A stretch of DNA of 64,000 bases from Candidatus Mycobacterium wuenschmannii (lineage in GTDB: Bacteria; Actinomycetota; Actinomycetes; Mycobacteriales; Mycobacteriaceae). Each line of letters opens with the position of its first letter. Position 1 is the first letter of the stretch. The DNA is taken from positions 1,364,001-1,428,000 of the forward strand of contig NZ_CP126981.1 in NCBI RefSeq assembly GCF_030252325.1, written 5' to 3'. Of the stretch, positions 6,927-10,331 are shown one piece after another. A program made the translations under genes and the position numbers. The notes under the pieces are model-generated. The model was not told the DNA's origin. It ran no database searches and saw only the letters and a list, made by a program, of their open reading frames with translations.

Positions 6927-8048
6927 TTAAATCGCGATCACGATCAGTTCGTGCGGACGGTGATTGACCGACTGCGCACCGTCGTCGCTCACCACCACGA
7001 TGTCTTCGATGCGGGCTCCCCACTGACCCGGGAAGTAGATGCCCGGTTCGACGGAGAACGCCATGCCAGCCCGCAGCGGCAGGTCATTGCCGGCGACGAT
7101 GTAGGGCTCCTCGTGCACCGACAAGCCGATGCCGTGGCCGGTGCGGTGCACGAAGTAGTCGGCGAGCCCGGCTTCGGCCAGCACATCGCGTGCGGCGGCG
7201 TCGATCTGCTCGGCGGTGACGCCGGGCCGGACCGCGTCGACGGCGGCCTGCTGCGCCCGCTGTAGCACCGAATACTGCTGCGCCACTTCAGGACTCGGCT
7301 CGCCGATGCTGTAGGTGCGGGTCGAGTCGGAGTTGTAGCCGGGCGCGTACGGGCCACCGATGTCGACGACGACAATGTCGCCGGCCTCGATCTCGCGGTC
7401 GGAGTATTCGTGGTGCGGGTCGGCGCCGTGCGGCCCGGAGCCGACGATGACGAACGCCGCCGCCGTATGTCCTTCGGCGACAATGGCTTCGGCGATGTCG
7501 GCCGCGACGTCGGCCTCGGTGCGGCCGGGCACCAGGAACTCCGGCACCCGGGCGTGCACCCGGTCGATCGCCGCGCCGGCTTTCCGCAGCGCGTCGATCT
7601 CGGCGGCGTCCTTGACCATCCGCAACTCGCGCAGCACGCCGGTGGCCAGCACCGGCAACGTGCCGAGCACCTCGGCCAGCGGCAGCAGGTGCAGCGCCAG
7701 CATCGAATCGGTGACCGCCGTCGCGGCCGGTGCGCCCACGGCCTCGGCGACCAGCCGGTAGGGGTCCTCGCCGTCGACCCAATCTCGCACCACCACGCCA
7801 AGATCCGCGGCCGCGGACTCTTTCAGCGACGCCAATTCCAGCCGCGGCACGACGATCGTCGGGTCGCCGGTGACCGGCAACACCAGCGCGGTGAGGCGCT
7901 CGAAGGTTTCTGCCCGCGAGCCGATCAAATAGCGCAGGTCGTACCCCGGGGTGATCACCAGGCCGGCCAGGCCCGCCTGCTCGGTCGCGGCGATCGCGGC
8001 AGCCACCCGGCGGCGGTAGACGTCTGCGTCGAAGCGGTCAGAACCCAT
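6927..8048 (-). CDS. pepE: M24 metallopeptidase (Xaa-Pro dipeptidase/aminopeptidase PepE)
   Basis: The 373-residue protein has the creatinase-like N-terminal domain and a pita-bread M24 domain. The five metal ligands are visible: Asp in VVVDIGG, Asp in NSDSTRTY, His in HRTGHGIGLSVHE, Glu in VEPGIYFPG and Glu in ARIEDIVVV. It should remove N-terminal residues next to proline; the counterpart is Rv2089c. The ATG at 8048 has AGGAG six bases upstream. That AGGAG is also one of the two flanking repeats of the IS110 element, so the gene keeps its ribosome-binding site but is cut off from its original promoter. Confidence 0.9.
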   Translation of the reverse strand: MGSDRFDADVYRRRVAAAIAATEQAGLAGLVITPGYDLRYLIGSRAETFERLTALVLPVTGDPTIVVPRLELASLKESAAADLGVVVRDWVDGEDPYRLVAEAVGAPAATAVTDSMLALHLLPLAEVLGTLPVLATGVLRELRMVKDAAEIDALRKAGAAIDRVHARVPEFLVPGRTEADVAADIAEAIVAEGHTAAAFVIVGSGPHGADPHHEYSDREIEAGDIVVVDIGGPYAPGYNSDSTRTYSIGEPSPEVAQQYSVLQRAQQAAVDAVRPGVTAEQIDAAARDVLAEAGLADYFVHRTGHGIGLSVHEEPYIVAGNDLPLRAGMAFSVEPGIYFPGQWGARIEDIVVVSDDGAQSVNHRPHELIVIAI

Positions 8049-8062
8049 GCGTTTCTCCTATG

Positions 8063-9115
8063 TCAAGCCGCTGCCGGTTGGCAGGGCTTAGTTCGGTGTT
8101 GCTGGTCGGTGTGGAGGTGGCTGAAAACGACGCGGGCCAGGCGGCGTTTGAGGCAACGCAGGGCTTCGGAGTTGGAGTCGCCTATAGCAAGGCGGTGTCG
8201 GTAGTAAGTGCGGCCCAAGCCCTCGAGGCGGATCTGAGTGACGGCTATGCGATGCAGGGCGGCGTTGAGTTGCCGGTTGCCCGAACGGGTCATCCGAACC
8301 CGCCCCGCGGTATTGCCCGACCACACCGGAATGGGCGCCACCCCGGAATGGCGGGCGAAGGCGGCCTCACTTTTGAAACGAGTTACCCCGGCTGTTTCAC
8401 CGACCAGCTTGGCCGCGGTCAATTCCCCGCACCCGGGCATCGCCAGCAGCGCAGGCGCAACCGCGCGTACTCGCGAACCGATCCGGTTAGCCAGTGCCTC
8501 GATTGCTTCGGTCAGCCGGGTAATGTCGGCGAGCTCATCGCGGGCCAACTCGGCAACCAGACCGGGCACCGTCACCAACCAAGCGCCCAACAGCACGCGA
8601 TGTTTGGAGCGGTCCAACGAAGCCGGAACCGGGGCACGCTCGGGATCGAGTTCGTGAACCCGCCAGCGCAACCGGTTGATCATCGCAGTCCGTTGTGCCA
8701 CAAGGACTTCCCGGCGATCCACCAACAGCTTCAACTCGCGCGACACCTCATCGTGAGATGCGACAGGTAGGTCGGGTTCGCGAAGAAACGCCCGCGCAAC
8801 CGCCAGCGCATCAATCGGGTCAGACTTACCACGAGTACGCGCTGAGGCCCGGGCTTGAGCCATCAACTTCGGCGGTACCCGCACCACCTGCTGGCCAGCG
8901 GTGAGCAGATCCCGTTCCAACCGCGCCGACAAATGCCGACAATCCTCGATCGCCCACACCACCTTGGTGCCAAAGCGCTCGCGGACCCACATCACTGCCT
9001 CGGCATGACCGGCGGTGACAGCCCTAACAGTCTTCTCGCCAAGCTTGCGCCCCACCTCATCGACGGCGACGAACGTGTGCGTGTGCTTGTGTACGTCGGC
9101 TCCAACAACAACCAT
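8063..9115 (-). CDS. IS110-family DEDD transposase/recombinase
   Basis: This 350-residue protein has the two-part IS110 architecture. An N-terminal RuvC-like DEDD domain shows VVGADVHK, VWAIEDCRHLS and GKSDPIDALAVARA. The C-terminal Tnp_20-type domain has LLAMPGCGELTAAKLVGE and RMTRSGNRQLNAALH, where the Ser in RSGN is the expected nucleophile. IS110 recombinases use a structured bridge RNA to pair target and donor DNA. The ATG at 9115 has GGAGG eight bases upstream; the ATG at 9130 overlaps that Shine-Dalgarno sequence and is less likely. It appears intact and lies antiparallel to the exonuclease gene. Confidence 0.92.
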   Translation of the reverse strand: MVVVGADVHKHTHTFVAVDEVGRKLGEKTVRAVTAGHAEAVMWVRERFGTKVVWAIEDCRHLSARLERDLLTAGQQVVRVPPKLMAQARASARTRGKSDPIDALAVARAFLREPDLPVASHDEVSRELKLLVDRREVLVAQRTAMINRLRWRVHELDPERAPVPASLDRSKHRVLLGAWLVTVPGLVAELARDELADITRLTEAIEALANRIGSRVRAVAPALLAMPGCGELTAAKLVGETAGVTRFKSEAAFARHSGVAPIPVWSGNTAGRVRMTRSGNRQLNAALHRIAVTQIRLEGLGRTYYRHRLAIGDSNSEALRCLKRRLARVVFSHLHTDQQHRTKPCQPAAA

Positions 9116-9130
9116 GGTGATTGCCTCCAT

Positions 9131-9300
9131 TCACTGTGAGGTGACGGTTGGGCCGGTCGGCGGACACATCTCAGTGGGGGCGGTGCCACGCTCCTATCAA
9201 GTCACGCCGGCCGGTCCTTCACACCCGGCGTCGACAAAACGCATGAACGCCAACCCAAAGGCGGCAGGCAGGCTATGAGCCAGACACCGGGTGATCAGGA
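9131..9300 (-). ncRNA. Candidate bridge RNA of the IS110 element
   Basis: This is the non-coding left end upstream of the transposase, read on the minus strand. An 11-bp stem with one G-U pair (9283-9293 with 9222-9232) encloses TGCCGC (9266-9261), equal to the left target flank, and CATGCGTTT (9245-9237), complementary to the right flank AAACGCATG. A second 10-bp stem with one mismatch (9205-9214 with 9153-9162) encloses ATAGGAG (9197-9191), equal to the right element end, and CACCGC (9185-9180), complementary to the left element end. The order LTG-RTG-LDG-RDG is that described for bridge RNAs. RNA ends and promoter are not defined. Confidence 0.7.
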
Positions 9301-9380
9301 TCCAACCACCGCAACCTCCTGCGGCACCTCACCCTGACACTGAGCACCAGGCTAGCGGTGCGACTGGCAGGATGACGGGC

Positions 9381-10331
9381 ATGTCCGCACCGGTGCTGCT
9401 GCTCGACGGTGCCTCCATGTGGTTTCGTTCCTTCTTCGGCGTCCCGTCGTCGATCACCTCCCCCGACGGCAGGCCGGTCAACGCGGTCCGTGGCTTCATC
9501 GACTCCGTCGCCACCGTGATCACCCGGCACCAGCCCGGGCGGTTGGTCGTCTGCCTGGATCTGGACTGGCGCCCGCAGTTCCGGGTCGACGCCATCCCGT
9601 CGTACAAGGCGCACCGGGTGGAAGAGGAAAACCCAAGCGGCCAAACCGATGTCGAGGAAGTGCCCGACGATCTGTCGCCACAGGTCGAGATGATCGCCGA
9701 AATCCTCGACGCGTTCGGCATCTGCACCGGCGGCGCCGAGGGCTTCGAAGCCGACGACGTGATCGGCACGCTGGCCGCCCGGGAGCGAGGCGACCCGGTG
9801 GTGGTCGTCAGCGGCGACCGCGACCTGCTTCAGGTGGTGCGCGACGAACCCGTCGAGATCCGGGTGCTCTATCTGGGCCGCGGGCTGACCAACGCGACGC
9901 TGCTGGGCCCGGTCGAGGTGGCCGAGAAATATGGCGTTCCCGTCGATCGGGCGGGGCCAGCGTACGCCGAACTCGCGTTGCTGCGCGGCGATCCGTCCGA
10001 CGGCCTGCCCGGCGTGCCCGGCGTCGGCGAGAAGACCGCCGCGACGCTGCTGGCGCAGCACGGCTCGCTGGAGGCAATCCTGACGGCCGTCGACGACCCG
10101 AAATCCGCACTGGCCAAGGGCGTTCGGGCCAAGCTGCGAGCGGCCGCCGACTACATCGAGGTGGCCGGGCCGGTGGTCGCGGTGGCCACCGACGCACCGG
10201 TCAGCTTCTCCACGGACAGCGACGCGCTGCCGTTGGTGGCGGCCGATCCGCCGCGGGTTGCCGAGCTTGCGACCCGGCTGGGCGTGGGATCGTCGATCGC
10301 CCGCCTGCAAAAGGCGCTCGACGCGCTCTGA
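9381..10331 (+). CDS. 5'-3' exonuclease/flap nuclease (FEN family)
   Basis: The 316-residue protein is a stand-alone relative of the polymerase I 5' nuclease domain. The acidic metal clusters are visible: [15 protein letters not shown] at the N-terminus, [14 protein letters not shown] followed by [28 protein letters not shown] and [21 protein letters not shown], the last being the helix-hairpin-helix. It should remove flaps or RNA primers during repair or replication; the counterpart is Rv2090. The start could be the ATG at 9381 or 9372; both leave the first strand intact. The IS110 element ends about 60 bp upstream and may affect its promoter. Confidence 0.85.

Follow-up and report, generated by a model that had tools for sequence, protein, structure and literature searches.

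A predicted bridge RNA for insertion of a mycobacterial IS110 element between −10 box and start codon of apparently leaderless promoters

The position of an insertion sequence can give clues to how its site was chosen. In the window analysed here, a stretch of 64,000 nucleotides from Candidatus Mycobacterium wuenschmannii (NZ_CP126981.1, positions 1,364,001 to 1,428,000), an IS110 element lies directly in front of a host gene and separates its start codon from its promoter. This downstream gene encodes an M24 peptidase (Pfam Peptidase_M24; 6927..8048) and was called pepE in an earlier note on this DNA. All features described below lie on the minus strand, and coordinates are those of the window. 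What brought the element to exactly this point? The earlier note had proposed that a bridge RNA encoded in the non-coding end of the element holds the answer. Our analysis leads to a related conclusion in which we have high confidence, namely that the left end of this IS110-group element encodes a bridge RNA, predicted to guide insertion between −10 box and start codon of what look like leaderless promoters.

Recombinase and boundaries of the element

The element carries a gene for a recombinase of 350 amino acids (8063..9115), which Pfam and NCBIfam assign as DEDD_Tnp_IS110 plus Transposase_20. The N-terminal DEDD RuvC-like domain (PF01548) scored 89.1 bits and the C-terminal Transposase_20 domain (PF02371) 77.2 bits, and the match to NCBIfam model NF033542 reached 195.1 bits (cut-off 140). 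Among proteins of solved structure (PDB), the only sequence matches were to ISCro4 (9t56, E 1.8e-11) and IS621 (8wt6, E 2.1e-11), so that the recombinase appears to be a distant relative of both. For ISCro4, the likeness is known here from the recombinase sequence alone.

A genome-wide comparison detected three copies of the element in the 5.10 Mb genome, and these are identical between the anchors. In element orientation the copies share TCAGTGTCAGGGTGAGG... at the left and ...TTGACATAGGAGAAACGCATG at the right, beyond which they diverge. Together with the empty sites described below, this places the whole element at 8051..9343 (1293 bp), from TCAGTG at the left to AAAC at the right. The left boundary of the earlier note was therefore about 20 bp too far in: since the copies share sequence out to 9343, the TGCCGC at 9326-9321 that it had regarded as the left target flank is part of the element. 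The left non-coding end (9116..9343; 228 bp), which encodes the predicted bridge RNA and has a conserved fold with compensatory changes, is longer than the right one (12 bp), as in the IS110 group and not as in IS1111. All three copies lie between TAGCCT N4-5 and GCATG. The earlier note had stated that copies of the same element with unrelated flanks would speak against its reading; the other two copies are found in different surroundings and at the same TAGCCT...GCATG type of site.

The crossover point was fixed with the help of two sister insertions for which empty sites are known. One of them (L038) lies in M. interjectum; its flanks, once joined, read TTAGGCTGCAG^CCGTGACG and are found uninterrupted in the orthologous stretch of an 89% relative (L155; 19/19 bases), while a 95% relative (L154) differs at 2 of the 19 bases. 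As the joined flanks equal the empty site of L155, nothing was duplicated or lost on insertion. The second insertion (L118) agrees with its empty site (L163) except for one base adjoining the junction. No usable empty site was obtained for the insertion L130/L059, for which 7 of 31 genomes matched, including the query genome, the other six with stretches of 23-50 bases. At our own pepE site, rejoining the flanks gives the N7 spacing of the relatives.

Two related copies depart from this organisation. The right end of L040 reads AGGAGAATCTCAATG in place of AGGAGAAACNNRTG, unlike its sisters, and has perhaps been rearranged or is followed by a further insertion. L182 (G097:C23:227250-228180) consists of 205 bases from the start of the element next to 240 bases from its end, with most of the recombinase gene missing, which makes it a possible non-autonomous derivative.

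Fold and guides of the predicted bridge RNA

An alignment of 29 left ends gave a consensus fold with a 5' hairpin, a target-loop helix with an inner stem, and a donor-loop helix. The 5' hairpin (TGCCGC / GCGGTGG; helix 1, 9306..9326; 95.9% of cells paired) contains the supposed left flank of the earlier note. In the target-binding-loop helix (helix 4), the 5' arm at 9283..9293 pairs with the 3' arm at 9222..9232 (97.0% of cells paired; both-sided changes in 7/14 pairs), and the loop holds an inner stem-loop (helix 5, TGCCGCC ... GGTTGGCG, 9248..9266; 96.0%). The donor-binding-loop helix (helix 6) has its 5' arm at 9201..9217 and its 3' arm at 9151..9165 (98.0%; 5/12 pairs). Both stems of the earlier note (9283-9293/9222-9232 and 9205-9214/9153-9162) are thus present in the sequence and conserved throughout the alignment. 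The check for covariation that it had asked for was also positive: over the whole structure, 19 of 57 pairs displayed both-sided changes, compared to 4.8 ± 1.6 in shuffles and 2-9 in slid controls, although the structure was derived from the alignment on which it was tested and is therefore favoured over slid versions in such counts. As a single sequence the left end folds with modest stability (z −2.16; 8 of 200 shuffles as good). An Rfam scan of 7900-9500 returned two hits only, both far under the gathering score and to unrelated families. One related left end (L058:1368-1499) lacks the whole target-binding loop while the donor loop and a full-length recombinase match are kept; such a copy, apparently deleted in nature, would be expected to recognise no target.

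If the RNA guides insertion, guide and flank should change together between copies. Related copies were drawn from 78 loci of named genomes, from a survey of 148 same-genus genomes, of which 60 gave a match (often a short one), and from the genome's own copies. Of 88 full-length entries, some of which are one copy fetched twice, 62 were parsed, and collapsing the duplicates left 54 sites. The 26 dropped entries comprise 20 in which the left end was not found and 6 without the guide motif; 15 of these 26 are at ≤64% amino acid identity. A fixed rule took from each entry the decamer that follows a GGCTC-like motif, the segment that precedes TGYC, and the flank on either side, using regular expressions (for the held-out set described below as well) with an allowed offset of 0-4. 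The 40 sites in which a TANNNT guide is combined with an AAAC right end are called class 1.

In this element the left target guide (LTG) is ATAGCCTGCC (9267..9276), of which TAGCCT corresponds to a host −10 box; read in RNA direction (9276-9267), it matches the TAGCCT that adjoins all three copies. The TGCCGC at 9266-9261, to which the earlier note had given this role, forms one side of the loop's inner stem in the consensus fold, and the guide is the variable decamer just 5' of it. Over the 54 sites, with 36 guides, the decamer matched its own left flank at 8.14 of 10 positions, whereas shuffled pairings gave 5.10 ± 0.20 and none of 20,000 was as high. Poor fits were seen for L121 (4/10), L053 and L057 (5/10), and L097 and L051 (6/10). 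A held-out set of 28 sites (20 guides) scored 7.55, again far above the shuffled 5.16 ± 0.24 (0/20,000). These sites came from 93 scanned loci, most others having no parsable left end or repeating a known site; the set shares some genomes and guides with the first, and its score includes at least one false left end (4/10, in the second row for L082) as well as three rows from M. lepraemurium in which the guide has 9 bases. The co-variation of guide and flank, proposed as a check in the earlier note, is thus confirmed in both sets. It lends strong support to a bridge RNA as the explanation for this locus, and such an RNA accounts for the position exactly before pepE.

Some of the related copies show further variation in guide and site. 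In five M. lepraemurium copies (L110-L114) the match extends over just 768 bases, a right-end motif was not found and the guide is altered to ATGGGGTGG; the same TTAGGGTTGGG precedes four of the five. Eight others (L072, L074, L077, L134-L137 and L141) end in AGGAGCAA or AGGAGCTA and occupy quite different sites, for example TTTGTGTC^TTGCTCGC, mostly contiguous with the guide; an exact pattern for sites of this type was absent from 60 genomes. L097 and L078, with different guides and in different species, lie at the apparent start of the same gene (GTGCTGCTCTCCGATCG), either as parallel insertions or as one old insertion that has since diverged.

The right target guide (RTG; 9237..9245) consists of CATGC (9245-9241) followed by GTTT (9240-9237), the complement of the right end AAAC. 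As the earlier note had observed, CATGCGTTT at 9245-9237 is the exact complement of AAACGCATG at 8054-8046. Its opinion that a nine-base match is improbable by chance was borne out by a frequency of exact hits of 0.00065 in the mononucleotide-shuffled left end. Place and complement were therefore correctly named, but only a part of AAACGCATG, GCATG (8050-8046), is true target, since with AAAC (8054-8051) the element itself ends. Between copies, the right guide segment co-varied with the right junction, complementing it at 7.82 of 9 positions (shuffled 5.47 ± 0.23; 0/20,000; 33 guides). Within class 1, the five right-target bases agreed with the RTG at 4.22 of 5 positions against 3.63 when shuffled (1/20,000).

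The other four bases of the segment often change together with the right end of the element, as in ATTC with GAAT (L102), CTA with TAG (L074, L077, L135, L137 and L141) and CAA with TTG (L090). For all guides the four right-end bases fitted the RNA at 3.58 of 4 positions (shuffled 2.94; 0/20,000), and for the copies outside class 1 alone at 2.92 (2.07; 12/20,000); within class 1 these bases hardly vary. Misfits are L134 and L136, which have an AAAC-type RNA segment and right ends CTAT and CAAT, and L072 (2/4). In the IS621 structures of PMC11208158, the RTG is still paired to target bases 10-14 after top-strand exchange and also binds the two bases of the donor core, while a handshake guide pairs with two further donor bases. 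The nine-base segment described here would fit this post-exchange layout, with 5 target, 2 core and 2 handshake positions.

For the donor loop, the putative left donor guide (LDG) ATAGGAG at 9191..9197 is, as the earlier note had found, equal to the right end of the element (8061-8055). Both read ATAGAAG in L104, L107 and L195, a joint change that possibly represents one event, and misfits occur in L077 (two bases) and L050 (one base). A pattern search for donor-loop variants gave matches in 7 of 121 genomes, one of which (L195) has the variant. As right donor guide (RDG) the earlier note had named CACCGC, complementary to 9307-9312. With the true left end being TCAGTG (9343-9338), the matching donor-loop segment is CACTGA (9176-9171, that is, 9171..9176); because neither ACTGA nor TCAGTG varies among the 29 aligned left ends, this tentative assignment draws on complementarity and position.

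The right end (8055..8066) combines a −35-like TTGACA (8066-8061) with the donor site TAGGAG (8060-8055), which includes a Shine-Dalgarno-like AGGAG. After insertion this AGGAG is six bases upstream of the host start codon. With one variant allowed, the right-end motif located the right end in 53 of the 54 parsed sites. When the excised circle was modelled for class 1, the hexamer 17 nt after TTGACA was CAGGGT in 35 of 40 sites, an arrangement that resembles the promoter reported in PMC11208160 to re-form in IS621 circles.

The target and alternative explanations for it

The left target (9344..9354) comprises the host −10 box TAGCCT (9354-9349) and five further bases, and the right target GCATG (8046..8050) ends in the pepE start codon. 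This combination is general in class 1. The last 14 bases before the element contain TANNNT in 39 of 40 sites, compared to 9 of 879 upstream control windows (1%), and a start codon is found two bases past the element in all 40 (30 ATG, 10 GTG). The downstream frames have at least 100 codons or are open to the locus end in 32 of 40 cases and are shorter than 100 codons in the other 8, while of 484 nearby out-of-frame starts used as control 33% have at least 100 codons. Upstream of pepE itself, the pattern TANNNT N7 RTG (here with R for A or G) is present in 21 of 23 same-genus relatives tested (background 2.2%). In M. tuberculosis, according to PMC3898074, 73% of primary start sites have a TANNNT centred 7-12 bp upstream, and leaderless genes make up 22-26%, depending on the set. 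Since −10 box and start codon recur in 39/40 and 40/40 sites, the guides fit those of leaderless promoters; this is the sequence type of the target, and its use as a leaderless promoter here is what we infer.

The pattern TAGCCTN{4,5}GCATG occurs intact at two sites in the 5.1 Mb genome (G000:C1:4161332-4161346 and 4250172-4250186), and read backwards at three. With the three insertions, 3 of 5 such sites are therefore occupied, and the two intact ones are predicted to be targets that the element has not yet taken.

The two halves of the target are not rigidly spaced. In class 1, 4 or 5 bases separate the −10 box from the crossover at 36 of 39 sites and 3 or 6 at the rest, and the LTG-matched stretch ends 0-3 bases from the crossover, one and the same guide being found with offsets 1, 2 and 3. 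Among the ten elements whose right end is CAA, CTA or CTTC, nine show offset 0 and one (L090) offset 1. We searched for a core dinucleotide common to target and donor and found none in the class-1 copies, in which no fixed base is shared by the two junctions; the 2-base candidates AC, CT, CA and TC were each rejected as they are not shared by both sides. For this reason only the crossover point is reported. Given the variable gap, the varying offsets and the lack of a shared core, the two half-sites seem to be read separately in class 1.

Could such sites arise without guidance by an RNA? One possibility is selection after insertion: as the element brings its own AGGAG, a gene hit between promoter and start codon would still be translated, and insertions of this kind would survive. 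The presence of AGGAG six bases ahead of the start codon in the 40 class-1 sites fits this idea, which nevertheless leaves unexplained both the base-by-base match of guide and flank and the occupation of three of the five exact sites in the genome. Moreover, elements that do not lie at start codons keep AGGAG as well, and there the donor guide would explain it. The same observation weakened the supply of a ribosome-binding site as the reason for AGGAG, and translation was therefore probably not its first purpose. We consider post-insertion selection improbable as the explanation of the sites, while it may add to the site bias. It is less probable still that the protein, not an RNA, recognises promoters, and that guide-like stretches resemble flanks because both are TANNNT. 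The nearly universal −10 box and start codon in class 1 would agree with such a preference, but even within class 1 the three variable bases of TANNNT agree with the guide, at 2.74 of 3 positions against 1.38 when shuffled (0/20,000). In addition, elements with other guides occupy quite different, non-TANNNT sites that match those guides, such as L072 AGACCCGCAC and L135 CCTTTGTGTC (10/10) or L079 (9/10), and the held-out sites agree. Finally, the original assignment of the earlier note (LTG TGCCGC, RDG CACCGC, left boundary near 9320) has hardly any probability left, for its quoted matches are present letter for letter, yet the extent of the shared sequence and the empty sites contradict its boundary, its LTG is a stem arm and CACCGC does not match the true end.

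A proposed mechanism and its relation to known systems

Guidance by a bridge RNA thus remains the preferred explanation, and we propose the following course of events. The predicted RNA, once produced, would form two loops, one for the target and one for the donor. With the target loop it would recognise TAGCCT on the left, the −10 box of a leaderless promoter of the host, through the LTG ATAGCCTGCC, and GCATG on the right, with the host start codon at its end, through CATGC of the RTG. With the donor loop it would recognise the ends of the excised circle, ATAGGAG at the right through its own ATAGGAG and TCAGTG at the left through CACTGA. Directed by these pairings, the recombinase would join circle and target, leaving the element between promoter and start codon, in the orientation of the gene and without duplication. 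The GTTT of the RNA has no fit to the empty target and is complementary to the incoming right end AAAC, with which it may pair in a handshake step. After insertion, the distance from the −10 box to the third base of the element (TCA) equals the former distance from the −10 box to the start codon, and the host promoter could therefore start the bridge RNA there. That promoter would then transcribe the element, and the AGGAG of the element would serve the downstream gene.

The likeness to IS621 covers the recombinase family, the presence of the RNA in a long left end, the order LTG-RTG-LDG-RDG and the strand senses of the guides, as given in PMC11208160, and a register that fits RTG, core and handshake guide as given in PMC11208158. 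In contrast to IS621, which in these texts has one contiguous target around a CT core, the element described here has half-sites with a variable gap and no shared core, and what it targets is the −10 box of a promoter together with a start codon. IS900, an IS110-family element of M. avium subsp. paratuberculosis, is likewise mycobacterial and, according to PMC8141618, makes no target duplication. The same paper gives the motif CATGNNNNNNTCTCCTT for IS900 insertions and cites a paper with the title 'IS900 targets translation initiation signals'. On the other strand, we read this motif as a Shine-Dalgarno-like AAGGAGA followed by N6 and CATG, which would correspond to leadered starts. By this reading of the motif, IS900 would differ from the present element, with leadered starts there and a −10 box plus start codon here. 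A literature search of open-licence papers (titles and beginnings of abstracts) revealed none on IS110 elements or a bridge RNA aimed at leaderless promoters, which is no proof of absence. Bridge RNAs as such were already known; what appears to be new is the kind of target, namely leaderless genes, addressed through their −10 box and start codon.

A more far-reaching idea, which we put forward tentatively and regard as somewhat more likely to fail than to hold, is that in an actinobacterial IS110 clade the bridge RNA has turned into a promoter finder. Its short guides for the −10 hexamer and the start codon, with a slack of 0-3 bases, would place recombinase and RNA under a host promoter, while the displaced gene would be given AGGAG and escape silencing. 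If this is true, one RNA recognises a functional class of sites, the leaderless promoters, and the element joins a transcription unit while the gene stays unsilenced.

For a mycobacterial IS110 element, these findings offer a sequence-level reason for a position exactly before start codons, in that the guide encodes a promoter box and a start codon, and they make target sites predictable from the element's own sequence. They also suggest that a bridge RNA is able to use two separated half-sites with variable spacing and without a shared core, which bears on how recombinases of this family choose their sites. Lastly, they raise the testable idea that a mobile element may reside inside a promoter without silencing the gene.
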